Source: a bacterium
Lineage (GTDB): Bacteria > UBP15 > UBA6099 > JAJRTR01
Direction of reading: 5' to 3'
DNA: 63,333 nucleotides
NCBI GenBank assembly: GCA_024278215.1
Contig: JAJRTR010000038.1
Span: forward strand, 1-63,333
Shown here: piece by piece, positions 12,101 through 57,965 of the stretch
How the letters are laid out: each line of letters begins with the position of its first letter
Numbering within the stretch: position 1 is the stretch's first letter
The notes under the pieces: generated by a model
The model's database searches: none
What the model was told of the DNA's origin: nothing
What the model saw: the letters and a program-made list of their open reading frames with translations, nothing else
Program-made: the position numbers and the translations under genes

Positions 12101-12320
12101 CCTCGTCTGTTCCTATCCATATAAACCCGTGCCTGTCCTGTATTATGGAAGTGACAACACTGCTGGAAAGTCCGTCGTCGGTTGTGATACTCTCGAAACG
12201 CCCCCCGAGATTTGGAGCCGCATGACCTTCATCTGCATTTTCGGTGGCCGACACGGAAATTACCTGTATCATGAAAAAAAACAGAACAACTGCTGCTCTG
12301 AAAATACTTTTTGTCGGCAT
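9198..12320 (-). CDS. Two-component-type propeller sensor with GGDEF output
   Basis: A 1040-residue membrane sensor and probable diguanylate cyclase. It has a signal peptide (residues 1-25) and then many propeller blades of the form IWIGT-GL-RYD (about 40-690) that would form two seven-bladed propellers in the periplasm. A Y_Y_Y domain (about 720-790), one membrane helix (about 800-820), a coiled coil and a GGDEF domain follow. The active-site loop reads RWGGEEF near residue 954. An RxxD inhibitory site (RKQD) lies five residues before it, so product feedback is expected. In well-known homologues this sensor half is fused to a histidine kinase; here it drives c-di-GMP synthesis. The ligand is unknown. 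Polysaccharide degradation products are typical for the family. Confidence 0.92.
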   Translation of the reverse strand: MPTKSIFRAAVVLFFFMIQVISVSATENADEGHAAPNLGGRFESITTDDGLSSSVVTSIIQDRHGFIWIGTDEGLNRYDGYRFKVYNNNPDNADSIANNSIAALYEDADGIIWIVYQRGGFSRFDPETDTFRHYVKKSGRGGSLLSHELFSIVEDQSDNLWIGASGGLIKFNKRTEAITEYEGSQGSGNIPPGVIVKVLADRSGYIWLTTNIGLGRFDPEAETFKAFSPRLMSLESKGRFIVRDMTMDIKETIWLTSNLKGLLRFDTARKSFTRYGCFSDTTKLFLDSDGDLWIGTSSQGIYKFNPDTDEAIHYRNVPSVPKSLSINNAISFYEDREGLIWIGSRGTGININNPASRQFALFRAEPDNLNSLNNNEVSAILKGSSATLWVGTSGGGLNAYDSGTHRWRAYTQDSAPGYRLSDDFVFALCEDKENNLFIGTRKGLDRLDIGTGKVNQFASRQSKKRKLPQGHVSSCMVDSAGDLWVGTDIGGLLRLAKGADKFEVYGAGNEQANTLIHNRILTIYEDSSNLVWVGTPLGLSLYDRENDTFLNYLNEDVTVAVNSIKGTPDGRLWLGTSCGLSVLDPPTGIYMRITRGRALPARNVTNIQFDAHGNLWLTAGKGLTKYNPDTGVHATYDVTDGLQGNEFLSSYYDKDNNMMYYGGINGFNSFDPDMIESNQYRPPVVLTDFRILNKEVPVGPDSVLKKQIWAMTGQDDRIVLNHRQSIISFEFAALSYAAPQRNRYRYQLEGLDRDMIETDSSRRFVSYASLPPGDYVFRVKGSNNNELMSNSEVALNITVLPAWWMTLWFKVLVVFAVAAVLFLIYEGRISTVRKHNIELEALVKERTKQIEKHVLELERRNAIITKQTKQLEEMARTDPLTKLPNRRDFLEKADVENARADRSGKPISIIMSDIDHFKLVNDTYGHDCGDYVLKTIAETIRNTMRKQDVYARWGGEEFIALLPETNLEGARTLAEKLRKKIQETTIVYEDYTFNITMTFGVGVRAPGANIEDAIKRADEALYVGKEGGRNRVVSEDMMEK

Positions 12321-27190: not shown

Positions 27191-27495
27191 GAGACCCCTC
27201 TTTTGCATGCTGATGCTTCCGGGCGTTTTGCATTCTACCGGAAACTCACGTTTCTGATGCGGCGCGAAAACCGCCCCTGTTCCTGCTCGAACTCCCCGGC
27301 TCGTGCATCGGGACTTTCCGGGCACGCAAATATAACAACGGCATTCCTGCCGGATTCCATTATAATATAGTATCCCTCACTTATGAACAACAGTTGTATT
27401 AACTTATTAAGATTCGCATAGCGCCCGAAGTAATTTGTCGTTTATGTATTCAGATGCCGAATTTCCGTTTTATCCCCATTGCAGGTATAATCGGG

Positions 27496-27921
27496 ATGGA
27501 CATGGAAAACAAACATAAAGACCGCTTCTGCCGCAATTGCGGCACAGCCCTTTCGGCCACATTCATCTTCTGCCCCGGATGCGGCAGGTCAATCGGGGCC
27601 GGCGATGCCGTTGCTGAAAAGCCGGTAGCTTCCGACGGCAGCGTGCCGGGTGGCGAAAAAAGACTGTCTCCCGATGCCGAAATGGTTATGCGGGAATTCG
27701 ACATGAAATTCCGGAAGCTGAAGGCGGACATGCAGAATCCCCTGCGAAACGGCATCCCGTTTATTACTCGTTCTCCTTTCAGCTACATCAAGGACCAGCG
27801 GATTGTTTTGTGGCTGACAGTATCTTCATTTGTGATCTTTTTCGCAATGATCGTCGGCTCTTATTACCTGATCGTAAGGTTTTTCTTACCGTACATAATG
27901 AGTATGCAGGCGATAGATTGA
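27496..27921 (+). CDS. Zinc-ribbon membrane protein
   Basis: About 141 residues. An N-terminal zinc ribbon (FCRNCGTALS and FCPGCGRSIG, two CxxC pairs) is followed by a polar stretch and one C-terminal membrane helix (about residues 100-130). Function is unknown; similar layouts act as small membrane-bound regulators or assembly factors. An upstream in-frame ATG at 27454 would add 14 residues; the chosen start is nearer the ribbon, but the ribosome site is weak for both. It is followed 42 bp later by a TPR lipoprotein gene. Confidence 0.65.
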   Translation: MDMENKHKDRFCRNCGTALSATFIFCPGCGRSIGAGDAVAEKPVASDGSVPGGEKRLSPDAEMVMREFDMKFRKLKADMQNPLRNGIPFITRSPFSYIKDQRIVLWLTVSSFVIFFAMIVGSYYLIVRFFLPYIMSMQAID

Positions 27922-27963
27922 TTCAACTATTAAATTCAGCAACAACACCTGGAGGTGCGAATC

Positions 27964-28416
27964 ATGAAAACTTCGAAATGCTTTATCATTATCCTTTCAC
28001 TATCGGTAATCCTGTTTGCCGGATGTTCCGGAAAGAACAGTTCCGAGGCAAAAAATCTGCTTCGTGAAGGAATGAAATGCCATAATGCCGGCGACCTCGA
28101 ATGCGCAATGAAGAAATATCAGGCCGCACTCGATATTGAGGAAACCGCCGAAACATGGAACCTGCTCGGCATGGTCTACAGGTTCAAATATCTTAAAACG
28201 CAGAACGGTGAATGGCGCGACAAAGAGATAGAAGCATTCAAAAAGGCTGTCGAACTCGACGAAAAGTATGTTGTCGCTATAAAAAATCTCGGCGTGACAT
28301 ATTATCAGATCGGCGAAAAAACAAAAGCAGCCGGGCTTTTTCAGCGTGCTCTCGAACTCAATCCACACGACCCGGAAAAGGAACAACTCGAAAAGATGAT
28401 TTCAGAAGGAAAATAA
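27964..28416 (+). CDS. TPR-repeat lipoprotein
   Basis: A 150-residue protein with a signal peptide ending in lipobox LFAGC, so it should be lipid-anchored. About three tetratricopeptide repeats follow, for example AGDLECAMKKYQAAL and VAIKNLGVTYYQIGEKTKAA, used for protein contacts in envelope complexes such as outer-membrane assembly or secretion. Start: GGAGG lies 8 nt before ATG at 27964. Confidence 0.88.
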   Translation: MKTSKCFIIILSLSVILFAGCSGKNSSEAKNLLREGMKCHNAGDLECAMKKYQAALDIEETAETWNLLGMVYRFKYLKTQNGEWRDKEIEAFKKAVELDEKYVVAIKNLGVTYYQIGEKTKAAGLFQRALELNPHDPEKEQLEKMISEGK

Positions 28417-28478
28417 CACTTCGAGGCGCTGTTGATAAAGTCCGGTTTCCCTGAAAATAGCGTGTTTGAAACGGGTTA

Positions 28479-28503
28479 GCCCGCATATTTCACCAATGCG
28501 GGC
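28479..28503. repeat. CCCGCAT stem-loop (family C)
   Basis: GCCCGCAT and ATGCGGGC form a perfect 8-bp stem with a nine-base loop. Flanking ATAGCG (28457-28462) and CGCTAT (28510-28515) extend the symmetry. Other copies are at 12523, 39318, 58339 and 63124. Confidence 0.75.
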
Positions 28504-28551
28504 AGGAATCGCTATGTTTGTTTTACGGTTGAATAACGGGTAAGAACAGAA

Positions 28552-29514
28552 ATGACAGGCACACTTTCACAATACATAGAAGGCCTGCTGGTCAGGAACG
28601 GTACCGCCTACCAGGGGCTGATAATATACCCGATCTGCCTGATAGCGCCTGAATTCGAGGTCACAGTCGGGGAAACGGCATCGCTCGGCGAAGCGCTGAA
28701 AAGAGGCTCGATTCACGTGTTGGAAACGGGTGAGATGGACAACATAAGAATAATAAACCGACGTGGCCGGACGGTTATTATCGACGGCGAGACATTGATC
28801 GGAGGCGCGCAGAACAGGATGATAAACGCCGGGGCCGTATTCGACGGAAAAGAAGAATCCGAGATGCCGTCGAGCTGTGTCGAAGTGCACAGGTGGGAAT
28901 GCGGCGGCGACAAAACGATTTTGCCCGGCAAGCGGCTGTTCCGTGATACGGATGTGGTATTCGGAAGCCTGAAGAGGCTGAAAATGACGGAATCCGTCCG
29001 TTCCCTGCACAAAGACAGGGCTATAAGCATCGACCAGCGCAAAGTGTGGAAACACATAGCGGAAGTTTTCGGTGTCAGCGGCGCGAAAACGAAAACACTC
29101 GATATGCACGATCTTTATGAATTCTGGGATAAGCCCCTGCATATTTTATCGAGACGCTTCACATTCACACGGCGGCAGGTAGGCACAATTTCATTTCTGG
29201 ACAAAAAAACGTGGTTTATCGACATATTCATGAATTCGGATATGCTGATGAAGAATTTCCGGAAAATCGTCCGCGCGTATTCTTTCGACGCGCTGATACA
29301 GGTCGAGCGCGGCAGATCGACCGAATATCTCAAAATGCCGTCGGTGCAAGACGCGCGGCAGGTGTTGAAAAGCCTTCGGCTCGCCAGGCTGCATGTGTTC
29401 GATGTGGACACTGCCGGTCGGCGCAAAAATCACTTCTTCTCCACAAACCGCTACTGCGGCACCGCCGTCATCGAAGGCGAAACCCTCATTCACCTCACAG
29501 CCTGCTCGAAGTGA
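28552..29514 (+). CDS. ARPP-1-like (DUF6569) domain protein
   Basis: A 320-residue protein whose pattern matches the ARPP-1 family: a strand-rich start (GLIIYPICLIAP), LGEALKRGSIHVLETGE, then NRRGRTVIIDGETLIGGAQNR and PSSCVEVHRWE. The family is named for its association with ADP-ribosylglycohydrolases and rhodanese-phosphatases in predicted nucleotide-linked conflict or signalling systems; its own activity is not known. No such partner gene is adjacent here. It is cytoplasmic, with no signal peptide. Confidence 0.75.
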   Translation: MTGTLSQYIEGLLVRNGTAYQGLIIYPICLIAPEFEVTVGETASLGEALKRGSIHVLETGEMDNIRIINRRGRTVIIDGETLIGGAQNRMINAGAVFDGKEESEMPSSCVEVHRWECGGDKTILPGKRLFRDTDVVFGSLKRLKMTESVRSLHKDRAISIDQRKVWKHIAEVFGVSGAKTKTLDMHDLYEFWDKPLHILSRRFTFTRRQVGTISFLDKKTWFIDIFMNSDMLMKNFRKIVRAYSFDALIQVERGRSTEYLKMPSVQDARQVLKSLRLARLHVFDVDTAGRRKNHFFSTNRYCGTAVIEGETLIHLTACSK

Positions 29515-29559
29515 AGTCGTTGTATTCCGGCGCTTCTCGCAATTCTATTGTTGCCGCGG

Positions 29560-30180
29560 TCAATTTACTGTAGCGTCGAAAACAATCGCGCCGGTCGCTC
29601 CGGCGGCAATATTGGGGATGAGGCAGTTTACGGATGCCGTAGCGGACAGGTAGCCGCAACCGTCTGTGTGGTCGTCATCGTTTGTAGTTGTCGTGTCGTT
29701 AGTTATGATCTCGATGGAACCGGAATAATAAGTCATGTCCGATGGTATCGGGTCGTCGACCACAGCGTTTCTGGCCGCCTCGCCTTTGTTCTCGAATTCG
29801 AGTTTGAAGGTGATACGCGAGCCCGGCACAACATCGTCGGGGTTTCCGTTGTAGCCTGTCCCCGTCGGCGCCTGTATGTCGATTATGGATTTCGTCGCTT
29901 CGAGAACAGACACGATACCGGATATGTAGCCGCCCTCGAGCCGGTAGTTTGCGCTGCTCATATCCGTGTAGCCCGCGGGCTGGGCCGCGCTGAACACCAG
30001 CCAGTAGCCCGCGCCCACCAGCCCCGGCGCGCCCGCCGCCGTAAGCGAGCCGTGCCCTATCTCGTAGCTGGTTCCCGCCGCGCCGGCACATGCGACCACT
30101 GCGCTGAACAATACTATAAACAACATTGCCGCCGGTATTGAAAATAATTGGAGTTCCGTTAGTTTTCTTTTTTGTTTCAA
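29560..30180 (-). CDS. Secreted DUF11-type repeat protein
   Basis: About 206 residues. A TTG start at 30180 gives a good signal peptide (MKQKRKLTELQLFSIP and a hydrophobic stretch), with GGTGAG 7 nt upstream. An open frame continues further upstream into a copy of element A, but those codons are not plausible. The mature part has a YRLEGGYISGIV segment common in surface proteins and a single DUF11-like beta sandwich (VVPGSRITFKLEFENKGEA). It probably sits outside the cell or in the envelope. It appears shorter than most DUF11 proteins and has no obvious anchor. Confidence 0.7.
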   Translation of the reverse strand: MKQKRKLTELQLFSIPAAMLFIVLFSAVVACAGAAGTSYEIGHGSLTAAGAPGLVGAGYWLVFSAAQPAGYTDMSSANYRLEGGYISGIVSVLEATKSIIDIQAPTGTGYNGNPDDVVPGSRITFKLEFENKGEAARNAVVDDPIPSDMTYYSGSIEIITNDTTTTNDDDHTDGCGYLSATASVNCLIPNIAAGATGAIVFDATVN

Positions 30181-30290
30181 ATGCACTCTCACCCTGATTA
30201 TATGGTACCGCACATGCCGTAATGCGTCAATTGAAACACAGTATAATTCATACCGGAAATTGCAAAAACGTGGAAAGTCTGATAAGAATA

Positions 30291-30467
30291 GAGCCAATTG
30301 AAAATTATGTTTGTAGCGAGGTCGAGCGAAATTGTTCAGAGCAAGGCGGAGGTGTAAAATCCTCGCAGGTGTACTTGCAAAGTACGTCGAGGACGATTTC
30401 GCGCCGACAACACAGCTATGGACAATAGCAGCCGACCGTAGCAGAATCAGATTTTTACAATTGGCTC
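30291..30467 (+). repeat. Element A, copy 4: full-length 177-bp form
   Basis: Reference copy. It runs from GAGCCAATTG to CAATTGGCTC with inverted ends. The middle contains GAGCAAGGCGGAGG, a hairpin with arms GTACTT and AAGTAC (near 30371-30385), and GCGCCGACAACACAGCTATG. It fills the gap between the DUF11 gene and dctP and encodes nothing credible. Confidence 0.92.
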
Positions 30468-30509
30468 AATAAGGAAAACAATCAGACAGGATCGGGAAAC
30501 TACGTAATT

Positions 30510-31487
30510 GTGAAGTTTATTGAAGCGACCATATATGTTCTTTTGCTTGCGCTTGCGGTGTCGTTTTCGCTTGCGCCGCAGGTTGACAAGCGTGTGCTTA
30601 TCGCCTCGGACGACCACAACGCCGAATACCCCACTACAAAAGGTCTTTATAAGATAAAAGAAATAGTGGAGCGCGAGACAGGCGGTGCGCTGAAGGTCGT
30701 CGTGCGACACAGCGCGCAGCTCGGCTCCGAGAAAGAAACCATCGAACTGACGCAAATGGGCATCATCGACATCAACCGGGTGTCGTGTTCGCCCATGGCC
30801 AGTTTTTCACCGAACATGGGTGTGTTCAGCCTTCCCTATATCTTCCGCGACTCCGGACACGAATGGAAAGTGCTCGACGGCGCCATCGGCCGGGAACTGG
30901 GCCGGGAACTCGAGCGGGTCGGCATGGTGACGCTGGCGTATTACGATTCCGGCGCGCGAAGTTTCTACAACAAGCGGCGCCCGATAAACAAGCCGTCCGA
31001 CCTCGAGGGCCTGAAGATTCGTGTGCAGAAAAACCCCGTGATGATCGACCTGGTGAACGGGCTCGGCGCATCGGCGACTCCGATGGCGTTCGAGGAGGTG
31101 TACAGCGCGATACAGACGGGCGTCATCGACGGTGCGGAGAATAACCCGCCGAGCTATGTGACTACAGGCCACTACGAAGTGGCGAAGTACTACTCGCTCG
31201 ACGAACACACGCGAATTCCGGAAATAGTACTGTTCAGCAAAAAAGTGTGGGACCGTCTGCCGGAGAGCGAGCGGGAGATCGTCGCCCGCGCGGCACGTGT
31301 GTCGCAGGACTACCAGATCGAACTGTGGAAGGCGAAAGAAGAAGCGGGAATGAAGGCGGTGCGTGAAGCTGGCAACAAGGTGAATGTGCCGGACAAGCAG
31401 CCGTTCATCGACGCTGTGCAGCCCATTTATGATAAGTATGCCGCGGACCTGGGCGGCCTGATAAAACGAATACAGGCGGTGAAGTAG
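30510..31487 (+). CDS. dctP: TRAP transporter solute-binding protein DctP
   Basis: A 325-residue periplasmic binding protein with an N-terminal hydrophobic signal (IYVLLLALAVSFSLAP). DctP features include VERETGGALKVVVRHSAQLG, the family Arg in KIRVQKNP that pairs with the carboxylate, and FEEVYSAIQTGVIDGAENNP. It captures a carboxylic acid for the DctQ/DctM permease. GTG at 30510 is the start, with GGGAA upstream. The operon partner dctQ is displaced about 1 kb downstream by a MITE-like element and an HNH gene. The substrate (C4-dicarboxylate, sugar acid or other) is not readable. Confidence 0.93.
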   Translation: MKFIEATIYVLLLALAVSFSLAPQVDKRVLIASDDHNAEYPTTKGLYKIKEIVERETGGALKVVVRHSAQLGSEKETIELTQMGIIDINRVSCSPMASFSPNMGVFSLPYIFRDSGHEWKVLDGAIGRELGRELERVGMVTLAYYDSGARSFYNKRRPINKPSDLEGLKIRVQKNPVMIDLVNGLGASATPMAFEEVYSAIQTGVIDGAENNPPSYVTTGHYEVAKYYSLDEHTRIPEIVLFSKKVWDRLPESEREIVARAARVSQDYQIELWKAKEEAGMKAVREAGNKVNVPDKQPFIDAVQPIYDKYAADLGGLIKRIQAVK

Positions 31488-44694: not shown

Positions 44695-46161
44695 TTACGG
44701 CACGTGCTTGCTGGAGATGAAATAGCGGAGGTTGTAGAAGAAAAAGGGGTCGCGCTCTTTCAGGGCGTTGATAAAAAGAAGCAGGTTATTGATAGCGAAA
44801 GAAGTGGGCCAGTGCCGGTAGAGCTTTTTCCTGATAAGAAAAGCTATCCATTTTCGCGGCAGCAACAAGATTGAAGAAAAGAAAACAGCGAAATGGGGGA
44901 TAGCCGGGTCGGGAGGCGAAGCGCCGCCGCCGCTGTAACGGTGTCCGCCCTGTCCGCGCTCGATATTCCGCCTGTCTTCTTCCGAAATGCAGCCTCGTTC
45001 GCGTGCGATCTGCACAATCTCGGTGCCGGGATAATATGTGAGCCAGAAAGTGAGCAGGCGGTCGGGGCGCAGATCGTTGTAGAATGAAGCGGCCCTGCTG
45101 AGAATCGCCTCGTTGTCGCCGGGTATGCCGATGATGTGATCGACAGAAACTTGTATGCCGCGCTTCTTGAGCATCTCGACGGTTTTTCGAGCGCGGTCAT
45201 TCCGGTATCGTCGGTTGAGCACCTCGCGGCGCTGTTTTTCGTCTACCGACTGGATGCCTATTGTAACATAAACGCAACCGCTCTCTTTTATCAGGTCCGC
45301 GCTTTCCTCCGAAAGGGCGTTAGGGTGTGTGTAGCAGAAGTAGGGCAGGCCGACACGCTCGCGGTAACCACAGGTGAATTCCTCCAGCCATTTCTTTTGG
45401 AGAGTGAAAACATCGTCGCGGAAAACTATCATTCGGGCACGTCCCCGAGCGGCGACCGGCTCGAGTTCGTCGAGCACATTGCCGGGACTGCGGCGGCGGA
45501 TAAGTTTTGTGCCGGGCGGGAAGTAGTGCGACAGGCTTTTGTAGCAGTAGGTGCAGTTGTACGGGCAGCCGCGCGCACTCATAATCATGTAGTGGCGCTC
45601 GAGCGCGGGGACTTTATCGTAGAAAAGTTCTTTTGCCGGGAAGGGCAGTGTATCCAGATCTTCCACAGGCGGCGGCGGAGCGCCTTTGAAGATCGCACCG
45701 TCATCTCTGAGCCATACGCCGTCTATTCTGCCGGGCCGGCCCGCCTCCCACTCAGCGAGCAGCGCCGGGAACGATGTGTCTGCTTCGCCGACTGCAATTG
45801 CGTCGATACAGTCCTCGGCAACCACATGATCGGGCACTGCGCTAACATGCACACCGCCGAAAACGGTTTTGATTTCGGGCATTCTTTTTTTTATCTCGCG
45901 GGCGATTTCCAGCGACCAGAGATAACTGCCACTGAAACATGAGAAAGCGGCGACATCCGGTTTTTCTCTGATAATTCTTTCGATAATCTTCGGGCGCAGG
46001 TCGAAATGTTTCGCAAGAGAAGGGATGTCCCACATGAGGTGACCGCCGAAAATGCAGGGGTCGAAAGCGAGCTCGACCCGGTGCCCCGCCGCGCGCACCT
46101 CTGCCGCGAGGTACTCCACCCCGAGGTTCTCCGTTCCCATGTAGATAAAAAGGACTTTCAT
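44695..46161 (-). CDS. B12-binding radical SAM protein
   Basis: A 488-residue class B radical SAM enzyme. The N-terminal B12 domain (GTENLGVEYLAAEVRAAGH, and KTVFGGVHVSAVP) is followed by the SAM barrel with a canonical CPYNCTYC motif near residue 200, and a C-terminal hydrophobic, basic region. It is the same architecture as the protein at 1420-2868, with the first Cys intact. Such enzymes often methylate or cyclise lipids, sugars or antibiotics. The gene stands alone and its substrate is unknown. There is no strong ribosome site before ATG at 46161. Confidence 0.88.
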   Translation of the reverse strand: MKVLFIYMGTENLGVEYLAAEVRAAGHRVELAFDPCIFGGHLMWDIPSLAKHFDLRPKIIERIIREKPDVAAFSCFSGSYLWSLEIAREIKKRMPEIKTVFGGVHVSAVPDHVVAEDCIDAIAVGEADTSFPALLAEWEAGRPGRIDGVWLRDDGAIFKGAPPPPVEDLDTLPFPAKELFYDKVPALERHYMIMSARGCPYNCTYCYKSLSHYFPPGTKLIRRRSPGNVLDELEPVAARGRARMIVFRDDVFTLQKKWLEEFTCGYRERVGLPYFCYTHPNALSEESADLIKESGCVYVTIGIQSVDEKQRREVLNRRYRNDRARKTVEMLKKRGIQVSVDHIIGIPGDNEAILSRAASFYNDLRPDRLLTFWLTYYPGTEIVQIARERGCISEEDRRNIERGQGGHRYSGGGASPPDPAIPHFAVFFSSILLLPRKWIAFLIRKKLYRHWPTSFAINNLLLFINALKERDPFFFYNLRYFISSKHVP

Positions 46162-47609: not shown

Positions 47610-47625
47610 ATTTTGCAATCGGCTC
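47610..47625 (+). repeat. Element A fragment, copy 7
   Basis: A single right-hand terminus, ATTTTGCAATCGGCTC. No left end is found upstream. Confidence 0.5.
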
Positions 47626-48727
47626 ATAAATTTTTGATTCCCGATTCCACTTTCATGTCGCGTTTTGCGAGTTCGACAAGGAAAAGTTCGACAGGAACGC
47701 AGACTTCCGGCGCGACCACGCCACGTGCTTCGATCTGTTTTCCGGCAAGCAGCAATGTTCCGATGGAAGCCGGAATGCCTGTGAGCCGGTTCATGTTATC
47801 GACACACGTACCCGTATACATCACTTTTCTGCCGTCCTTTTCGCCGAGCACTCTCACGTGAATACCTGAAATCGGCCTGTGTTTGCTCTTGAACAGTGCG
47901 GGGCCGACAGCATGGAAGAAGTCTGCGCCCCAATTGCGTTTTTTGGGCGTGTTGGTCAGTCCCAGGGCCGCGAGCGCCTTTGCCATGGGGTTCACCCATT
48001 CAGGTGTGCAGGCACCCTTGAGCGTAACGACATCCAGTCCGGGAATGAAATGAGGAATAGTAACAGGTTCGGGATGCCCGAGGTGGTAGACGCTGATTTT
48101 GCCTATGGGTTCGGGAAACTCGACTCTCTCACGACCACTGCCCGCTGGTATTTTTGTCCAGCGCCCACCCTTGAAAGTGGGCACTTCGCCGGTAAAAATG
48201 TGGAGCGTATGCTTGATAACGGCGATACCCTCCGAGTCGTCCGCGCCGCCGGCCCAGGCCACATGCACCTCGCTTGCTTTGTCCATGCTTTCGATGCCCT
48301 GCCGCACCAGCACGTTGGACAATCCGGGCGTCCAGCCCATTCCACACAGGACAGCGATCCCTGCGTTTTTCGCCTGCTTATCCAGCGACAGAGCTTTCTC
48401 GACCGCGTCGTAATCGTCGCAGATGCTCACATAAGACCGCCGTGCGTCGATCGCCGCACGGATCATCTTCTCTTCATAAGTGTAGAACGGCCCGATGCAA
48501 CTGAGGGAAACGTCGGACTGCTTCATTATTTCCACAATCGCATCATGGTCGTTCGCGTCGCAGAAGGCGGCTTCCACACGGTCGTCCTCCAGCTCGGACA
48601 CCAGTTTGCGCGCGGCGGTTTTGTTGTAATCGGCTACAATAAGGTGTTCAACATTATCTGCCTTGACGAGGTCTCTGACCGCCTCGCTACCCATGTCGCC
48701 GGCACCGCCGAATACCGTTATTCTCAC
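47624..48727 (-). CDS. Saccharopine dehydrogenase-like reductase
   Basis: A 367-residue NAD(P)-dependent enzyme. VFGGAGDMGSEAVRDL at the N-terminus is the dinucleotide-binding loop, and PGLSNVLVRQGIESM lies near the hinge. The family includes saccharopine dehydrogenase and carboxynorspermidine synthase, which form or cleave secondary amines of amino acids. No lysine or polyamine genes are nearby, so the substrate is open. GGTGAG lies just before the start. A tip of element A touches its 3' end. Confidence 0.87.
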   Translation of the reverse strand: MRITVFGGAGDMGSEAVRDLVKADNVEHLIVADYNKTAARKLVSELEDDRVEAAFCDANDHDAIVEIMKQSDVSLSCIGPFYTYEEKMIRAAIDARRSYVSICDDYDAVEKALSLDKQAKNAGIAVLCGMGWTPGLSNVLVRQGIESMDKASEVHVAWAGGADDSEGIAVIKHTLHIFTGEVPTFKGGRWTKIPAGSGRERVEFPEPIGKISVYHLGHPEPVTIPHFIPGLDVVTLKGACTPEWVNPMAKALAALGLTNTPKKRNWGADFFHAVGPALFKSKHRPISGIHVRVLGEKDGRKVMYTGTCVDNMNRLTGIPASIGTLLLAGKQIEARGVVAPEVCVPVELFLVELAKRDMKVESGIKNL

Positions 48728-48904: not shown

Positions 48905-51457
48905 TCATTTATAGAAATTCCGGAAGAAGTCCAGCCTGTTCTTCATGGGGCGAATCTCCGGCCTGAAATCCTCCATTCTTATCGGGCATATCTCGCTGTC
49001 GCCCAGGACATCCACATATAACTGCCTGTATCCATAGCAATAATCATTCAGGGAACAGTCGGTGCAACAGTCGTTTTTATACATCCGACCGCTCACCCTG
49101 TGAAGATCGGGATAGCAGCGAAGATCGCCGCCGAGGGCGCAGGGCGGCGCGCCGCAGAAACCCGAGAATCCAGCAAAAGGAATTTTATTCCGATAACACT
49201 TTTCAACGGCTTCTATGACATGGCTTCGGATATCCGGGAATACAGGCACAATCCCCTTGTACAACAGTTGAGTATTGTGCGGCGCGGCAACCGAGAAAAC
49301 AATCGGTATGCCCCCGAGTCTGCCGGAAACGTATTCCACGAAATCAGGCAGCATTGTGCAGTTCATCGTATTGATAACGTGGCTGATATAAACGAAAACT
49401 CCACATTCGATAAGGTTGTCGATGCCCGCAATCGTTTTTTTAAATGCGCCTTTCATACCCGTGAGCAGATCGGATACCTGCGGATCGTGCGAATGCAGGG
49501 ACACGAAAGCGCTGTCGAGCCCGTTCCTGACAAGCGCTCTTGTTTTCTCCATGTCGTGGAGCAGGACAGCGTTCGTCTGAAGGCTTAGCTCCTCCGCTTT
49601 CACATCGTGCAGGAGGCTGACATATTCAGGGAGCCGTGGGTTCATTGTCGGTTCGCCACCGGTTATCGAGATAATATTTATCCGCCGGGCGGAATCGCGT
49701 AGCGCATTGATCTCCGCGAGTATCTGTTCATGTGTCGGATCGGGACAGGAGGTGTCGATGTAGCAGAAAAGGCATTTCTGGTTACACTTGAACTTCACCC
49801 TTAAAAGTACATCGTCGATGATCGTGTCGCCGTCGGAGCCGGTCTTCTCGGCTTTGACCACCAGGTTGTCCCGGCTGAACTTCATGCCCTGTTCCGCGTC
49901 GAGAAAAGAAGTGGGTGAAATTTTCTGTGAATACCTCAGGATCGCGCTCGCCTGATGTGTGTTGACGTTGTGCGCGACACCTGTGTGGAAAAACTTCCTG
50001 TACTCGGGCCGCAGCCCGAGACATATTGAATTGAAAGAGCAGTTGTTGCAGACATTGAACTTATCGAACATCGTTTCAACAGGATGGTCTACAGGCGGGA
50101 AATTGAAAAAGGAGAGCATTTTCTCGATGTTATTGAAAAGACACGGCGGCGGCGCTTCGAACGGGGCAAACGTGATAAGCACATCGCCGCCCACGCGGCG
50201 CTCGGTGATCCCTGTGAGCATACTCTCTATTTCCGCCGGCCCGAGCGGAAAATCTTCACCGGAGAAAATGGGCTGCAACTCGATCCTCTCGATGCCGGGG
50301 AATTTCCCGACGAGATATTCGATGTGATCGGTCAGGCCGAAAAATGTTGATCTCAGCAGTGGAATAATAACGAAAACATCCAATCCGAGTTCGAGCGAAT
50401 TGCCTATGGCCTCGAGTGACGCTTTGCATATACCTTTGCTCCGGCCGGCCTCGTCGCATTTTTTGTCGATGTGGCTTATCGATAGTACCCTTATATAAGA
50501 CAAACCCGCCCGGGCCAGTTTTTCGACATAGTTCATGTCGGCGAGTTGTATGCCGTTTGTCCGGATGCCCACCGAACGGAACCCCAGTTCCTTCGCAGTG
50601 GAAATGTATTTTATCAGTTGTTTGTTGACTGTCGGTTCGCCCCCGGTGAAAGTCACAGTGGGCGAAATAGTGCCTTTGATTCTCGCGATGTCGGACATGA
50701 TTTCCCTGGAACTTCGCTCCATTACCGTATCACCCTGCATGGGGCAGCAGAAGCAGCAGTCGATATTACACTTTTGTCCGAGATAGACCGAGCAGGGTAC
50801 AGCGCCGTCCGACACATCCGCCTTCCCGAAACACAGGTCGAAAGCTTTGTTGCCGAGTGTCGACTTTTGTTTCGCACCTGTCGGCGACACGGCTTCATCG
50901 GCGCATGTCTTATCCTGTACTTTCGCCTGTTTGTATCTTTCGATCTCTTTTTTTACACGTCGCTCATAGTCAACTGTTTTTTCGCAATCCGCCGAGCACG
51001 GAATATGGGCAATGTACTGGAAACGGCTTCTGGCGACTTCAGCGTTCATCGACTCCAGGCCGCACGAATCCAGTTTTTTCACGCAACACGCCGGGTACCC
51101 CAGAAGAATGCCGACGCTGCATGTATCATTTTCATAATCGGCCTCCATAAGTTTTTCCACATCCGCGCGGTCACGCCCGATGTAGAAAAGAAACTCGTTC
51201 CTGTAGTTTCGCAGGGTATCGTGTTTTCGTTCTTTACGTATCTTATTCAGTTGCGCGGCAGTGATCATTTTATAAAACAGGCCGTTTCTCTGAAAAAAGT
51301 CTTCGTATGCCGGGATATCCGGCTCCGCCACTTCGATTATGCCCGCGGGCCGTAGTCCACGCAACACTGTGAATATCTCCGACCAGAAATTGTTCAACAC
51401 GTTTTCGGCTTCGTCAGATGTCATTGTTGAATACACCTCCAGGGTGTGTCCACTCAT
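48905..51457 (-). CDS. DUF483 protein with two radical SAM domains
   Basis: About 850 residues. The N-terminal domain is DUF483-like (SVGILLGYPACCVKK near residue 124). Radical SAM domain 1 follows, with KCNIDCCFC near 230 and TFTGGEPTVN, then a Cys-rich SPASM-like tail (NVCNNCSFNSICLG). Radical SAM domain 2 has KCNQKCLFC near 555 and ISITGGEPTMN, then a second Cys-rich tail (DCCTDCSLNDYCYG). Both cores carry canonical C-x3-C-x2-C. Such enzymes modify peptides or mature protein cofactors; no precursor peptide is seen. ATG at 51457 overlaps the stop of the upstream gene (ATGA), so the two are translationally coupled and should form one system. Confidence 0.85.
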   Translation of the reverse strand: MSGHTLEVYSTMTSDEAENVLNNFWSEIFTVLRGLRPAGIIEVAEPDIPAYEDFFQRNGLFYKMITAAQLNKIRKERKHDTLRNYRNEFLFYIGRDRADVEKLMEADYENDTCSVGILLGYPACCVKKLDSCGLESMNAEVARSRFQYIAHIPCSADCEKTVDYERRVKKEIERYKQAKVQDKTCADEAVSPTGAKQKSTLGNKAFDLCFGKADVSDGAVPCSVYLGQKCNIDCCFCCPMQGDTVMERSSREIMSDIARIKGTISPTVTFTGGEPTVNKQLIKYISTAKELGFRSVGIRTNGIQLADMNYVEKLARAGLSYIRVLSISHIDKKCDEAGRSKGICKASLEAIGNSLELGLDVFVIIPLLRSTFFGLTDHIEYLVGKFPGIERIELQPIFSGEDFPLGPAEIESMLTGITERRVGGDVLITFAPFEAPPPCLFNNIEKMLSFFNFPPVDHPVETMFDKFNVCNNCSFNSICLGLRPEYRKFFHTGVAHNVNTHQASAILRYSQKISPTSFLDAEQGMKFSRDNLVVKAEKTGSDGDTIIDDVLLRVKFKCNQKCLFCYIDTSCPDPTHEQILAEINALRDSARRINIISITGGEPTMNPRLPEYVSLLHDVKAEELSLQTNAVLLHDMEKTRALVRNGLDSAFVSLHSHDPQVSDLLTGMKGAFKKTIAGIDNLIECGVFVYISHVINTMNCTMLPDFVEYVSGRLGGIPIVFSVAAPHNTQLLYKGIVPVFPDIRSHVIEAVEKCYRNKIPFAGFSGFCGAPPCALGGDLRCYPDLHRVSGRMYKNDCCTDCSLNDYCYGYRQLYVDVLGDSEICPIRMEDFRPEIRPMKNRLDFFRNFYK

Positions 51458-53217
51458 TTTTTCAGAACCAGGAACCACTGATTGGCGGTATCCGGCGTGA
51501 CCGGCGAATGATGGACTGTTTTAAAATCGTGTACGCTGCGAATCAACCGCAGGGCGTCTTCGGAATAGTGGTTTCTGAAATGCTCATATACAGGTTCACG
51601 AGGATTCGCGGGCGGGTCCTCCGCGACATCTTTTTTGAGATTGGCGAAGATGCCGTTTTCAAAGATGTAAAGAGTGCCGCCCGGCTTCAGCAAATCGACA
51701 ATCCTGCGGACGACATACACAGGATCGCGAAAATGGTTGTAGCTTCGCAGCAACAATACGTGATCGTATACGTTGGGTGCGCTTTCAAAATCTTCGAAAT
51801 TCCTGTTGATAATGTCGAGGCCGATTCCTTCGTGCGGCCTGCTGTCGACGCCCGTATATTCGATCTCTCCGTTGCGCACCTTGCTCTCGAACAGGTCAAG
51901 CAGCACAGGGGTCCCACATCCGATGTCGAGCACTTTCCCCTCGAGCTTCCCGAGGAGTGCTCTTTCCTTTTCAACAACCCCGGCGTATACATTTCCCCCG
52001 ACCGGCACAAAAACGCACGAACACACTCCCGCCCTGTCGCACTCATGGCATCCTTCATGCAGTACAATCCGTTTGAAGGCGGTTCGGAAGTCCAGGTTTC
52101 TCGTGTGGCCCGCTGTGTTGAGATAGAGCTGTTCGCGCTCGAACTTCACCATCTTCATCACCGGACAACTGTAAATATCGTTCGCGACTTCGAAGATGTC
52201 AAGATTCCCATCAACGAGAACCGCCGTTTCCCTGTAACGATGGTGCCTGCCGCAGAAACTGGCCCCGCCGGGACATTCGCCCTGATCACCCACAGGATAT
52301 GAGCGTGTGAAATCGTAGCCGAGACTATTCGGCATACGTTCGCAAAAAGGGGTCGCATTTTCCGCGGAAACCCGCGCGTTCGCGCCCGGACAGTTCAACT
52401 GTTGCGAACAATGGAGACATTCTTTGAAATACTTTCCCGGTGTCGCTTCATAATAAGCCGGGCCATCTTCATCAGCCACACATGCAGACAGTATCTTTTC
52501 TGCGCAGAAATCCGTTCCCGATTGCCTGTGGGCGGGCATCACACAGGGAATAAAGCTGCTGCGGCTGAAGGTGATCTTTCTGCCGGGTACACACCTGTAC
52601 AGGTCTATTGCAGCGTCCACCGCGGCGGCGGCGGCAGCGACATCCGGGAAATACAGCTCCCTCATTTTCGCATCGGCGAAGTCATTTTCGGGCAGTGAAA
52701 ACATTATCTCCGAATCTGCCCGGATAGCGCCCGCGAGAGCGACGATATGATTCAGGTACTCGATATTGACCCGTGTTATTACAGTATGAAACTTCAGGGT
52801 TTTTACGCCCGCGGCAATGTTGCGCAGTCCCGCGACAGTCTGTTTGAACGAGCCTGCGACACCGGTCAACGCGTCGTGTATCTCTTCATTGTGCCCCGGC
52901 AGGAGCACCTGAACGTATTCCGGCTCATAACCGACGAATCTTTCAGCGAAACTTTTATATGCGAACATCCTGCAGTTGGTTATCAAGCCGATATTCATGC
53001 CGTGTTCTCTGATACTGTCGGCGAGCTGCCGGAAGTCTTCGCGTATTGTCGGCTCTCCACCTGCCAGGATCACTGTTGAAAAACACATTTCTTTCAGGAC
53101 CCGGATATTGTCCGCTATGTCCTGTGTCGACAACCGGGGCGCTTCGCGCTCCATAGTGAGCGCACAGAAAACACAATTATTGTTGCAACTATGTCCAACC
53201 CTGAGGATAGCTCTCAC
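51454..53217 (-). CDS. Radical SAM protein fused to a class I methyltransferase
   Basis: A 587-residue protein. The radical SAM core is N-terminal, with SCNNNCVFC at residues 10-18 and VILAGGEPT at about 50. A Cys-rich auxiliary-cluster region follows (FKECLHCSQQLNCPG and later CHECDRAGVCSC). The C-terminal domain is a class I methyltransferase (KVLDIGCGTPVLLDLF near residue 425, then LKPGGTLYIFENG). The fusion suggests sequential chemistry: radical modification, then methyl transfer. Its stop overlaps the start of the next gene. It is the first gene of the pair, about 380 bp from the divergent prepilin-peptidase gene. The substrate is unknown. Confidence 0.87.
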   Translation of the reverse strand: MRAILRVGHSCNNNCVFCALTMEREAPRLSTQDIADNIRVLKEMCFSTVILAGGEPTIREDFRQLADSIREHGMNIGLITNCRMFAYKSFAERFVGYEPEYVQVLLPGHNEEIHDALTGVAGSFKQTVAGLRNIAAGVKTLKFHTVITRVNIEYLNHIVALAGAIRADSEIMFSLPENDFADAKMRELYFPDVAAAAAAVDAAIDLYRCVPGRKITFSRSSFIPCVMPAHRQSGTDFCAEKILSACVADEDGPAYYEATPGKYFKECLHCSQQLNCPGANARVSAENATPFCERMPNSLGYDFTRSYPVGDQGECPGGASFCGRHHRYRETAVLVDGNLDIFEVANDIYSCPVMKMVKFEREQLYLNTAGHTRNLDFRTAFKRIVLHEGCHECDRAGVCSCVFVPVGGNVYAGVVEKERALLGKLEGKVLDIGCGTPVLLDLFESKVRNGEIEYTGVDSRPHEGIGLDIINRNFEDFESAPNVYDHVLLLRSYNHFRDPVYVVRRIVDLLKPGGTLYIFENGIFANLKKDVAEDPPANPREPVYEHFRNHYSEDALRLIRSVHDFKTVHHSPVTPDTANQWFLVLKK

Positions 53218-53600
53218 AATATTTCATTAACTCCGCAAAATGACGTCAAACAACAGGAACCGCTGAAACTTTTGACTGAAAATCATTATAACACAGTAAT
53301 CGTCGCGATGTGTGAAGGGGGAAAGGCGCGGTGTTTTTCCTGGAGTGCAACGACAGTGTCGTTACAAAAAATGTTGTATTAATATCTAATGAAGCGCCCC
53401 GGAGCAAACTCCGGAGTATCAAAATACTTGAGACAACTTCCGACACACTATATTTCTCTATCCATACCAAAAAGCGAAGAGCCGTATTTTGATTCGCGCT
53501 ATGCTGTATGATATAATTATTCTGCGTATTCCGGGCACATATTATACCGGTAGAAGCAGGTTTTCGTTCAGCCACGAATTACACGACAGGTGAATGATTG
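53218..53600. other. Divergent promoter region with small palindromes
   Basis: About 380 bp between the radical SAM pair and the prepilin-peptidase gene. It contains a family B fragment (TGGAGTGC and AACGACAGTGTCGTT, 53341-53364), a CCGGAG-CAAA-CTCCGG hairpin (53399-53414) and a consensus promoter facing right. I found no credible precursor peptide gene here. Confidence 0.65.
53489..53517 (+). promoter_or_regulatory. Sigma-70-type promoter of the prepilin-peptidase operon
   Basis: TTGATT (53489-53494) and TATAAT (53512-53517) with a 17-bp spacer; the -10 is perfect. Transcription should start near 53525, about 75 nt before the ATG at 53601. Confidence 0.75.
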
Positions 53601-54734
53601 ATGAGCATCCAACTGGTTCTTCTGTTTACCCTTCTGACAGCGGCGACGGTTACGGACATGAGAACCAGCAAAGTCAAAAACCGGACACTCTTGTTTTTCC
53701 TGATGCTCGGACTTGTTTTCTACGGTGTGCTCACGGCAAAAGCGCTGTTGACGCACAACGAAGCGATTATCTGGGAATTGAAAATAACAGGAGTTAACTT
53801 TTTGCTGGCTTTTCTCGTATCGTTCATGCTGCGAAGCATGAAGATATGGCCTGCGGGAGATGCCAAGACGTTCGCTCTCTGCAACCTGTTCATACCTCTC
53901 CATTATTACAAACACGTGTATTACAAATACTTTCCCGGCTTTACATTACTCATAAACATCTTTGTAATAGGCATTATCTATATCCTGCTGAAAGCGCTGG
54001 CGTATATGTGGATAAACCTCGAGATATTTTCAGGGACCGGGAAACTAAGGTCGGTCATCACGGAAAACTTCGGTAAGTTCAAAACCGGCTGGCCGGATTA
54101 CCTGAAGCTCTTTTCCTCATATCTCATGATCTTTCTTGTAATGAGTTTTTTCTATTATTACTTCGCGGCGGCCATAGAAAAATACCTGCGCATCAGCCCC
54201 GAATTCATAATTATTATTGTCTTCATCATTATGAAGCCGGTGGGCGATGTCATCAATAAGAACCTCGGGGGGATCAACCACGGTCTTTTCTACATATTTT
54301 ATTTATTGCTTGTTTTCTATGCGTCGGGCTGGTCGCTTGCGGAAGCTCAGTATACCCTGACGAGGGTTCTCGCAAGCTCGATTAAATTCATGGCGCTGTA
54401 TGGTATCGTCAACGGACTGGTTAAGTATTACATAACGAACACGCAGGTGGTTGTAAAAAACGTTGACGAACTCAAGGAAGGCGATCTCCCGATCCGGGAG
54501 TCGCTCGGCATTCTTTCGCACGAAGCGAGAGCGATGCTGGAGGTACCTTCCGAGGGCCTGACCGCCGAGAACATCGCCGTTATCCGGCATGACATCGCAA
54601 ACAGGAACGCCGGCGACAATTTGATTCATATTTATGAACCGATCCCGTTCATACCGATTATTTTCGCGGGCGTTGTTTTTACTGTCGTAACAGGAGTTTC
54701 TTCCGTAGTATATTTAAAAAATCTTTTCTTCTGA
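53601..54734 (+). CDS. Prepilin-type (A24) aspartic peptidase-like membrane protein
   Basis: About 377 residues with roughly ten membrane helices. Two aspartate sites of A24 peptidases are present: TDMRTSKVKN (Asp near residue 19) and PAGDAKTF (GDxK-like, near 86). Prepilin peptidases cleave the leader of type IV pilins and pseudopilins. This one is longer than the CpaA or stand-alone forms because it has a large C-terminal membrane part. ATG at 53601 has AGGTGA 7 nt upstream. It is followed 21 bp later by a GT39-like gene, so a glycosylated pilin or surface system is possible. No pilin gene is in the window. Confidence 0.75.
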   Translation: MSIQLVLLFTLLTAATVTDMRTSKVKNRTLLFFLMLGLVFYGVLTAKALLTHNEAIIWELKITGVNFLLAFLVSFMLRSMKIWPAGDAKTFALCNLFIPLHYYKHVYYKYFPGFTLLINIFVIGIIYILLKALAYMWINLEIFSGTGKLRSVITENFGKFKTGWPDYLKLFSSYLMIFLVMSFFYYYFAAAIEKYLRISPEFIIIIVFIIMKPVGDVINKNLGGINHGLFYIFYLLLVFYASGWSLAEAQYTLTRVLASSIKFMALYGIVNGLVKYYITNTQVVVKNVDELKEGDLPIRESLGILSHEARAMLEVPSEGLTAENIAVIRHDIANRNAGDNLIHIYEPIPFIPIIFAGVVFTVVTGVSSVVYLKNLFF

Positions 54735-54755: not shown

Positions 54756-56318
54756 ATGTCACCGATTGAATTCATGGCAATGATCGAGCAACACACGCAG
54801 GCCGCCAGAGCGCCGTTTGCGGCCATTACCCTTTCCGTGGTCATATATTGCATATTCGCACTTTGGAAAAATGATAAGGATATTATTTCCGGCATTCCCC
54901 GAAAGTACATATACGGTCTGGCGCTCACCTTTGTGGTCGCATTCGTTATCCGGGTAGTAATCTACCCGCATCACGCGGGAATGATGAATGACGATTTTTA
55001 TAATATGCAGCACGCGAAAATGATACTTGATCCGAATTTTCATCCTTTTAATCCGTTCGAGAAATCTATCGGCTGGCCGTTCCTCCTGTCGATCCTGTTC
55101 TGGCCGCTGGGGCTGAATCAGTACACTGCCTACTTCGCCAATTCGATCTTCGGCGCACTTACGGTAATCCCGCTTTTTCTGCTTGCAAAAAGAACAACCG
55201 ACTCCAATGTGGGAGGCATCCTGGCAGCTTTTGTTTTCGCGGTGCATCCGCTTCACTCGATGTGGTCCATCTGCGGTGAAAACAATGTTGTCTCCATCTT
55301 TTTCATGGTTATCGCTCTCGCGGCGCTTTTCGGCTTCTTCATTCACCACACACACGAATACATTTATTTGTCGTTATTCTCCGCTTCTTTCGCCGCGCAA
55401 ACCCGGGTCGAGCATTTCATCCTTTTCCTGTTCATTCCCATAGGGATATACTTTCTGTGCAGAGCGCTTTTTTCTTTCAGGCGAATCGTTGCCGTAATGT
55501 GGATACCCGTCGCGCTCGCGATCCCCAACCTGCTCCACGAGATAGTGTTGAAGATGTCCACAAACTGGACTCTCAACGATACTAAAGGGGCTGTCACGGG
55601 CGCGAACGTGTCTCTGGATAACCTGGTGTCGAACCTCGGCAGCGAAATGATGCGAATCAGGAGCGGCGACAGTTTCTCCTCGCTGATTGTACTACTTGCC
55701 CTGGTGGGCATAGTCGTCGGCTGGAAATACCATAAAAAGATAATCGTATTTTTCGGGGCGCTGGGAGCGACGTATTTCGTCATGATCAGCCTGCTCTGGA
55801 AAACACTCGCTTGCCGCGAACGATTCTTCCTTTATACCGATGTCTGCCTGGTCCTGATAGGGTGCTTCGTGCTGAAATATCTTGTCCGGAAATATAAAAA
55901 GCATGAAAAAATAATCGTGCCGGTACTCTTATTGCTGATAGCTGCGTTCTCCCTGCATTTCCACGTTAGGAATATCGACCCGGGTTACGATTACTTCTAT
56001 TACGGACGAAAAATGACGGATGCGTTTCAGCAAATAATCGCGAAATCATCTGAAAACACAATCATAGTTGTCGGCGACCCGGCTCCGATACAGGCGCTGT
56101 CGGATATTATGGTGATGCTCCCGGATGTTGCGCTGGACAATATCGAAAAACTGGGAGATCATGAGGACCTTTACTACCTGTGTTATATACCGGGGGACCC
56201 TTCTTATGAAAGAATCAGGCAGGCATTCCAGATGCAGATAATCATGCCCCTGAAACTCGGCGTGGAGCTAACCCCCGACTCTTCAAGATTCGGGTACTAT
56301 AAAATCATACCAAGATAG
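54756..56318 (+). CDS. GT39/ArnT-type membrane glycosyltransferase
   Basis: A 520-residue GT-C enzyme with about ten or eleven helices. The first periplasmic loop carries the acidic motif MNDDFYNMQ near residue 76, expected for polyprenyl-phosphate-sugar transferases, and GWPFLLSILFWPLG follows. It should transfer a sugar from a lipid carrier to a protein or lipid on the outer face of the inner membrane. The C-terminal tail (about 100 residues) is soluble. It directly follows the prepilin-peptidase gene. The stop codon touches a partial copy of element A. Confidence 0.82.
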   Translation: MSPIEFMAMIEQHTQAARAPFAAITLSVVIYCIFALWKNDKDIISGIPRKYIYGLALTFVVAFVIRVVIYPHHAGMMNDDFYNMQHAKMILDPNFHPFNPFEKSIGWPFLLSILFWPLGLNQYTAYFANSIFGALTVIPLFLLAKRTTDSNVGGILAAFVFAVHPLHSMWSICGENNVVSIFFMVIALAALFGFFIHHTHEYIYLSLFSASFAAQTRVEHFILFLFIPIGIYFLCRALFSFRRIVAVMWIPVALAIPNLLHEIVLKMSTNWTLNDTKGAVTGANVSLDNLVSNLGSEMMRIRSGDSFSSLIVLLALVGIVVGWKYHKKIIVFFGALGATYFVMISLLWKTLACRERFFLYTDVCLVLIGCFVLKYLVRKYKKHEKIIVPVLLLLIAAFSLHFHVRNIDPGYDYFYYGRKMTDAFQQIIAKSSENTIIVVGDPAPIQALSDIMVMLPDVALDNIEKLGDHEDLYYLCYIPGDPSYERIRQAFQMQIIMPLKLGVELTPDSSRFGYYKIIPR

Positions 56319-56402: not shown

Positions 56403-57965
56403 GTGTCCCGGAGAAAAACAACAAAGGACCAACACGCGTTCCTCTTTGGATTGCTCTATTGGACAGCGACCCTCGCACTCGTGTTTTTTATTCTCAATAC
56501 GGTTTCTTCCCATATTCTGGGAAAACAGGAAACTTCTTACTCGAAATACGACATTAAAGCCATCACCAATAACGGCGATGTCGACTACCTTGTCTGCGAC
56601 GAAGGCGGAAACAACTATTACTTCGATTTCTATTTCCACATCGTCAAAGACGCTTATGCGAAAACTATAAATATCGGCCCCGAGATTATCGACACAAACG
56701 AACCCGTGAAATGTGTGCGCCACAACTTCGATGCAACAAAAATAATGACCGAACTGCCTGATCCCGGACCACCCGGTCGCGACGAAAAACGCATCGTTTT
56801 CATCGGTGACTCATTCACTTACGGCGAAGCTGTTCCGGCAGGCATGGCCTATCCCAACGCCATGAACACCTACCTCGAACTCCGGGGCAATCCGAATAAA
56901 TGGAATATAATCAACTATGGAATCATTGGCGCGGACCTGCCGTTCATTTATAATGTCAATTTCAAACAGGCTCTCAATGTGTCGCCCGACACAATCGTCT
57001 ACACCTGGATTCCCAACGACACACCTTACCATGGCAAAAGAGCCGAATTCCTTGAATTGTACGATTTGATAAACAGGCGCAATCTCCGCTTGAGACTCAG
57101 GGGAATCCCTTTCGTCAAACTCATTCGTCTGCTCCTGGAAAACCGTCGGCTGACTTCTCAAACGCTGAAATGGTATCGCGATATACACGGCCCGGACAAC
57201 AAACAGGGGATGGCGGAACTCAGGGAATTATTTGCAAAAATGAAGGAAGAATCGAACGCGATTTCCGCGGATTTCAGAGTCGCTCTCTTTCCTCTTCTCA
57301 TCGGTCGGCCCGGCGATTATCCACTCGCCGGCGTCCATAACTCCGTCAAAGAAATACTCGATGAAGAGGGGATAAAGTTTATTGATCTAACCGACAAAGT
57401 ATTGGTTGAGCCTGCAAACGAGCTGTGGGTACACAATGCGAATCATCACCCGAATGTTAAGACACACAGGCGGGCGGCAAAAGCGCTCTTAGATTACCTC
57501 GGCATCGCAAAAACCGGCATCGAAAACGGCGGAGACGGGAAAACAGACGGCCCGGACATTTCGGAAAACTCGACAGCGCTGCCTCCCGTGTGCGTTGCTC
57601 ACGCGATGGGCGCGGCAGACTACGCTTCCATGCTCGACGCACTTACCACGGAACTGAAAGAATATCCTGCCGGCACCCGTTTCATCACCAATTCGGCGGT
57701 AGTGTTCGACATCGTAAGAAACAGGCTCTCGGGCAACATCTTTTTCGACGACGGCAACCTTACAGAAACAGAAACAGGCGGTTCGATCTTACAATGTATC
57801 TACCTGTTTTACATGGTGGTCAACCGCGACAATGTCAGGTTGGATTTCGCACCCGATTACATGAGTAAAATGACCTTTCCCGAAGGCTCGCTTTTCGTGA
57901 TACCCGTTAACCGCATCTTTTACATCCCCATTGCACATGAACAAAACGAGTGCGCCCACAATTGA
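56403..57965 (+). CDS. SGNH/GDSL-type hydrolase with extra C-terminal domain
   Basis: A 520-residue protein with an N-terminal membrane helix (FLFGLLYWTATLALVFFIL) that anchors it, then an SGNH hydrolase: IGDSFTYGEAVP near residue 134 (Ser), a GxxG region and a later His in NANHHPNVK near 348. Such proteins often acetylate or deacetylate cell-surface glycans. The last ~150 residues (ENSTALPPVCVAHAMGA onwards) form a separate domain I do not recognise. A GTG start is used, with GGTGA upstream. It follows the GT39 gene and may act in the same glycan pathway. Confidence 0.78.
   Translation: MSRRKTTKDQHAFLFGLLYWTATLALVFFILNTVSSHILGKQETSYSKYDIKAITNNGDVDYLVCDEGGNNYYFDFYFHIVKDAYAKTINIGPEIIDTNEPVKCVRHNFDATKIMTELPDPGPPGRDEKRIVFIGDSFTYGEAVPAGMAYPNAMNTYLELRGNPNKWNIINYGIIGADLPFIYNVNFKQALNVSPDTIVYTWIPNDTPYHGKRAEFLELYDLINRRNLRLRLRGIPFVKLIRLLLENRRLTSQTLKWYRDIHGPDNKQGMAELRELFAKMKEESNAISADFRVALFPLLIGRPGDYPLAGVHNSVKEILDEEGIKFIDLTDKVLVEPANELWVHNANHHPNVKTHRRAAKALLDYLGIAKTGIENGGDGKTDGPDISENSTALPPVCVAHAMGAADYASMLDALTTELKEYPAGTRFITNSAVVFDIVRNRLSGNIFFDDGNLTETETGGSILQCIYLFYMVVNRDNVRLDFAPDYMSKMTFPEGSLFVIPVNRIFYIPIAHEQNECAHN

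Follow-up and report, generated by a model that had tools for sequence, protein, structure and literature searches.

What do two overlapping genes do that between them encode three radical S-adenosylmethionine (SAM) cores, a class I methyltransferase and a DUF483-like domain? The question is raised by contig JAJRTR010000038.1 (assembly GCA_024278215.1), a bacterial stretch of 63,333 nucleotides, here called the window, on whose minus strand the genes P0001 and P0002 occupy positions 48905 to 53217. The pair is real, conserved in relatives and partly explained: its parts belong with genes of the Hxs (His-Xaa-Ser) type, which include putative modifiers of His-Xaa-Ser repeat proteins, and the best reading is that both genes are built from radical SAM modules of the HxsC type, the kind present in Hxs cassettes. 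Judging from sequence, we tentatively regard the pair as an autonomous unit, related to Hxs, that tailors its target in several radical steps and would act most likely on a ribosomally made protein encoded in trans, a proposal that may well prove wrong. The genome carrying the window (G000) was compared with six other species of the same order (G001-G006) within a survey sample of 386 genomes that includes these seven; outside the order, the nearest sampled relatives have only the domain rank in common with it. The two genes comprise the following features.

48905..51457, minus strand: P0001, 850 amino acids from the ATG at 51457, a DUF483-like domain followed by two radical SAM cores.
50855..51397, minus strand: DUF483-like region of P0001, which stands as an independent gene in both G001 and G006.
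50927..51127, minus strand: four-cysteine heart of the DUF483-like domain, GYPxCC ... PCSxxC.
50264..50794, minus strand: radical SAM core 1 of P0001, C237/C241/C244 (Pfam, alignment, motif scan).
49994..50161, minus strand: auxiliary unit 1 of P0001, C446...C477xxC480x5C486 (alignment).
49274..49816, minus strand: radical SAM core 2 of P0001, C565/C569/C572 (Pfam, alignment, motif scan).
48974..49171, minus strand: auxiliary unit 2 of P0001, C775, C780...C805xxC808x5C814 (alignment).
51454..53217, minus strand: P0002, 587 amino acids, in which a radical SAM core is joined to two auxiliary units of the CxxCx5C type and to a class I methyltransferase.
52603..53217, minus strand: radical SAM core of P0002, C11-X3-C15-X2-C18 with GGEP at 53 (Pfam, alignment, motif scan).
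52363..52560, minus strand: auxiliary unit 1 of P0002, C225...C267xxC270x5C276, invariant in 5/5 family members (alignment).
52003..52290, minus strand: auxiliary unit 2 of P0002, C315...C390xxC393x5C399, without a core of its own, invariant in the family (alignment).
51457..51960, minus strand: class I methyltransferase domain of P0002, motif I DIGCGTP (Pfam, alignment, Foldseek).

The initial annotation had described two open reading frames overlapping by ATGA, and the DNA confirms this with the coordinates correct: at 51457-51454 on the minus strand (...aaaATGAgtg...) the ATG of P0001 overlaps the TGA of P0002. A longer, mechanically called frame of P0001 begins with GTG at 51478; the ATG at 51457 was taken as the start because it fits the ATGA overlap. 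The three radical SAM cores and the class I methyltransferase were likewise recovered with Pfam, which found Radical_SAM (PF04055) above its cut-off twice in P0001 (1.2e-35), Radical_SAM once in P0002 (1.8e-18), and Methyltransf_23 above its cut-off in P0002 (8e-12). In all 3/3 cores the CX3CX2C and GGEP motifs are intact, and each core carries the sequence signature of the radical SAM superfamily, CX3CX2C with a barrel core containing GGE. In composition shuffles the core motif pair arose in 21 and 11 of 20000 sequences, i.e. about 0.1% or less. The methyltransferase combines a Rossmann-like domain with motif I, as expected of class I; the GCG part of the motif is invariant among relatives, and Foldseek matched the domain to 3l8d, BpumL and UbiG. 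The predicted structures of the two proteins have mean confidence (pLDDT) values of 62 and 64, which is low overall, with usable folds for the cores and the methyltransferase; since confidence is low in the auxiliary regions and in DUF483, no claim was built on those parts of the models.

Each core is followed by a PC...CxxCx5C unit, and P0002 has a second such unit, in agreement with the at least three cysteine-rich auxiliary regions noted before. Across relatives the same plan of core and PC...CxxCx5C is repeated and, together with the CC...CxxC of DUF483, amounts to up to eight cysteine sets, which may bind iron-sulphur clusters. The DUF483 part of the initial annotation stands with a reservation. 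The window copy reaches 16.3 bits with the Pfam model PF04467, below the cut-off of 25, and relatives carry the domain as a separate gene; the G001 ortholog scores 23.2 bits, and the G006 ortholog exceeds the cut-off with neighbours included. A profile that we made from the four-cysteine form (six seeds from two phyla) gave 97.6 bits (E 1.9e-27) for the window copy, which is itself one of the six seeds, and the CC...CxxC cysteines are invariant in all six. The domain is like PF04467 in its GYPxCC ... PCSxxC pattern and differs in being fused to two radical SAM cores and in scoring under the gathering threshold.

A pairing not conserved in relatives had been named beforehand as a result that would refute the idea, but it is conserved in G001 and G006. 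On contig C147 of G001 the module consists of a radical SAM-methyltransferase gene (26196-28067), a DUF483 gene (28045-28611) and a double radical SAM gene (28521-30626); G006 has the same arrangement, split by contig ends (C370 and C104). The set therefore comprises three genes in these species versus two in the window and, since the relatives encode DUF483 separately, P0001 of the window is a gene fusion. Selenocysteine was rejected as an explanation for apparent stops inside the relatives' sequences, the TGA being the stop of the separate DUF483 gene. Three divergently transcribed neighbours, listed below with their protein identities, extend the common arrangement to SGNH-PMT-A24 / radical SAM-methyltransferase - DUF483 - double radical SAM in the window, G001 and G006.

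53598..54734, plus strand: A24 (prepilin-type) aspartyl peptidase-like membrane protein, conserved neighbour, 43% identity.
54756..56318, plus strand: PMT_2-type membrane glycosyltransferase-like protein, conserved neighbour, about 32% identity.
56403..57965, plus strand: SGNH/GDSL-like protein whose N-terminal part has a hydrophobic stretch, likewise conserved beside the pair, about 37% identity.

The A24 gene was present in G000, G001 and G006, weak in G005, and not found in G002, G003 or G004. When a profile of the whole radical SAM-methyltransferase protein was run against the 386 genomes, the full-length members were those of the window, G001, G006 (in two pieces), contig C196 of G000 and contig C290 of G005; none was found in the 379 sampled genomes outside the order, and a contig search with P0001 gave a single weak archaeal match (27%). 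At G005:C290 (L030, 637-2211) there is also a P0001-like protein whose N-terminal core apparently lacks CX3CX2C and GGEP and is possibly a pseudo-core. The statement that no precursor peptide lies nearby held: the gaps of the module contain no convincing conserved short open reading frame, the good matches being ends of known genes, and no His-Xaa-Ser protein. The next gene downstream of the pair, saccharopine-dehydrogenase-like (47624-48727), was considered as a further member and excluded, because its homologues, present in 6/7 genomes of the order, sit on contigs without the pair, and neither G001 nor G006 has one next to it.

In NCBIfam both proteins match HxsC4 best (NF038332; 135.5 bits for P0001 and 87.6 for P0002), and HxsC (TIGR03977) is among the leading matches (113.3 and 77.1 bits). 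The likeness lies in a radical SAM core followed by PC...CxxCx5CxG. The four-cysteine DUF483 is common to the module and to the Hxs cassettes of the order and of G031, a genome of another phylum. The PF04467 model gave five matches in 4/386 genomes, and our profile found nine copies in 5/386, all 9/9 beside HxsC-like radical SAM genes; 6/9 lie in Hxs cassettes (G000:C37, G001:C99, G003:C2, G006:C39, and twice in G031:C80), and the remaining 3/9 are the present module. HxsB (TIGR03978) occurs in 7/386 genomes, among them 5/5 of those with DUF483, a coincidence with a chance of about 3e-10 if genomes were independent, which they are not, four of the five sharing one order. Among 80 genomes of the G031 phylum, PF04467 matched only G031, apart from one short partial match.

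Cassettes were identified by HxsB above its cut-off together with HxsD or HxsD-like and HxsA-like matches, and in G031 by HxsB only. The cassette at G000:C37 (L058-L059, 12.7-22.3 kb of the joined stretch) holds three HxsA-like His-Xaa-Ser proteins, HxsB, HxsD-like proteins, DUF483 and three HxsC-like radical SAM proteins; blastp showed the same layout in G001:C99 and G003:C2, and that of G006 is similar. The G031:C80 cluster (L062) has HxsB above the cut-off, two different DUF483 proteins, an HxsC4-like radical SAM protein, a class I methyltransferase and further radical SAM genes; HxsD and HxsA were not recognised in it. In a maximum-likelihood tree of radical SAM cores (midpoint root), the two cores of P0001 form sister groups (81/81) that join a radical SAM protein of the Hxs cassettes (89/91), and the core of P0002 groups with proteins of C196, G001:8416 and G005 (90/73). 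No equivalog cut-off of a known pathway was reached, but the parts do have relatives: the radical SAM proteins stand closest to HxsC4 and HxsC, and DUF483 follows Hxs cassettes. In the literature searched for DUF483 and HxsB/HxsC, no title or abstract describes this set of fusions.

As a mechanism, we propose that each radical SAM core would bind a [4Fe-4S] cluster and make a 5'-deoxyadenosyl radical, and that each auxiliary unit may hold another cluster that helps to bind the substrate or to pass on electrons. DUF483 would present or reduce the substrate, the three cores would work on it in turn, and the methyltransferase of P0002 would methylate it; that all steps share a single common substrate is our inference. 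Most likely this substrate would be a protein or peptide that is synthesised by the ribosome, exported, and encoded in trans. A protein or peptide is favoured because the HxsC kinship and DUF483 point there, and the three conserved neighbours (A24 peptidase, PMT-like protein, SGNH protein) suggest a cell-surface setting. The initial annotation had offered a peptide, a protein or a tRNA; the Hxs kinship agrees with the first two, and nothing that we found supports a tRNA. The maturation chemistry of Hxs systems was itself termed putative in 2022 (PMC9062424).

Several results weigh against a reading based on Hxs kinship. The HxsC and HxsC4 scores fall far short of the curated thresholds of 267.9 and 500 bits, respectively. 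With four of the five DUF483 genomes in one order, the association of DUF483 with Hxs genes rests on two independent lineages, both of which agree. Neither HxsA nor HxsB was found close to the pair, be it in the window, in G001 or in G006, and no open reading frame with a His-Xaa-Ser repeat in the window, G001:C147 (1-50000), G006:C104 or C370; the HxsB genes of genomes with the pair lie on other contigs. No called gene near the pair matched the cassette HxsD proteins by blastp, the HxsD model itself not having been run there. Since HxsA and HxsB are absent in cis, we did not file the module as an Hxs system, from which the window pair also differs in its tandem cores and its fusions to DUF483 and to a methyltransferase. 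Moreover, the pair is missing from G003, whose Hxs cassette includes HxsA-like proteins, so that this cassette does not require it. This last point bears directly on the idea that the pair acts in trans on the HxsA-like proteins of the cassette as an optional extra tailoring step. All 3/3 genomes with the pair do carry a cassette, and in G001 the genes beyond the pair (C147, 30681-42776) are for the most part orthologues of those flanking the G000:C37 cassette; however, the cassettes already have several HxsC-like radical SAM genes and a DUF483 of their own, and the one in G003 is very similar without the pair, which leaves this idea quite improbable. Even less credit is due to a merely accidental adjacency of two radical SAM genes with no joint function. 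The genome is extremely rich in Radical_SAM domains (106 matches in 4.5 Mb, with several tandem or fused cores, at C10, C30, C44, C47 and C112), yet the two genes overlap by ATGA, and the six-gene arrangement persists in two families whose proteins share about 32-43% identity; this conserved synteny already contradicts chance.

The nearest solved structures also speak against a protein substrate. By sequence they are BlsE, a nucleoside-sugar enzyme (cytosylglucuronate decarboxylase), for P0002 (E 4e-20) and core 2 of P0001 (1.5e-19), and GDGT-MAS, a lipid enzyme, for core 1 (1.3e-17); the top Foldseek matches are BlsE and DesII. A sugar or lipid substrate for this reason keeps some probability. 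The target of the pair might be an intermediate (a sugar, a nucleotide sugar or a lipid-linked compound) on the way to a surface glycan or lipid; radical chemistry would dehydrate, decarboxylate or epimerise it or form a C-C bond, and O- or C-methylation would come next, with the PMT-like protein transferring the product and the SGNH protein trimming or acylating it. The conserved PMT_2-like and SGNH-like neighbours fit this picture, as does a Bac_transf sugar transferase further along the window, but the latter is not kept beside the pair in G001, and DUF483 is associated with Hxs cassettes, not with glycan clusters. BlsE has neither a methyltransferase nor DUF483, and its family model scores well under HxsC4 for both proteins (50.6 versus 87.6 bits for P0002, 61.8 versus 135.5 for P0001). 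GDGT-MAS/Tes tetraether synthase and TrsS, nearest to core 1 among solved structures and NCBIfam equivalogs, stay far under the equivalog cut-offs (115.7 of 450 and 122.4 of 490). We consider a glycan or lipid role unlikely, though the most credible of the alternatives. A different objection comes from nitrogenase-like loci, beside which paralogues of both proteins stand in G000, the only genome of the order in which PF00148 (nitrogenase component 1 type) was found, and there at just two loci. At C196 (L037, 1050-6617) a NifH-like gene and, next in the row, a P0002 paralogue with radical SAM and methyltransferase domains are divergent from two NifDK-like genes (PF00148 at 1e-42 and 3e-38), possibly a nitrogenase-like BHDK locus with a methyltransferase-bearing radical SAM partner. 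At C30 (L032, 5830-12070) a P0001 paralogue without DUF483 precedes, on one strand, an 879-amino-acid NifH-NifDK-like fusion, whose middle region has no assignment, and a NifDK-like gene. The pair could accordingly be thought to build or insert a metallocofactor or tetrapyrrole-like compound, or to activate a reductase, in the manner of the radical SAM 'B' proteins of the BHDK systems (Isr, Mar, Nfa), the window copy having lost or never had its partners; in the isethionate reductase of R. capsulatus the radical SAM partner is essential (PMC11423573). The window pair differs from those systems, though, in that no NifH- or NifDK-like gene stands near it; its 63-kb contig has no PF00148 protein, and none was found in G001 or G006, which both have the pair. 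IsrB, MarB, NfaB and NifB are alike only in motif (PMC11423573), so unrelated radical SAM proteins can be recruited. A cofactor role thus appears improbable. A phage or defence role was rejected, PHROGs and PADLOC having given only generic radical SAM or viperin-like similarity.

We therefore keep to a free-standing tailoring unit acting on a protein encoded in trans. A bolder version, which we hold to be doubtful, is that a three-core complex with up to eight cysteine-rich metal sites modifies a trans-encoded surface protein in multiple steps, that HxsC-type enzymes have in DUF483 a new partner for redox reactions or for handling the substrate, and that the subunits were separately recruited as the radical SAM arm of nitrogenase-like reductases in G000. 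DUF483, a domain without known function, is now tied to Hxs-type radical SAM genes, and within one small order a single radical SAM family serves Hxs cassettes, a surface-linked module and nitrogenase-like neighbourhoods. The G001 form, with its three separate genes, offers a compact object for experiments.

Some features of the surroundings deserve mention. About 40 kb around the module in G001:C147 (L026-L028) are rich in radical SAM, B12-radical SAM, methyltransferase, peptidase U32 and large membrane proteins, and the orthologues of this region are dispersed over C6, C10 and C37 in G000. Secreted proteins of 490-530 amino acids are encoded next to the Hxs cassettes and also next to the pair. 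The window itself encodes two B12-binding radical SAM proteins (44695-46161 and 1384-2868), the former downstream of the pair on the same strand and 38% identical to a protein of G000:C37. At 9198-12320 the window further encodes a 1040-amino-acid two-component-regulator propeller protein with Y_Y_Y and GGDEF domains.

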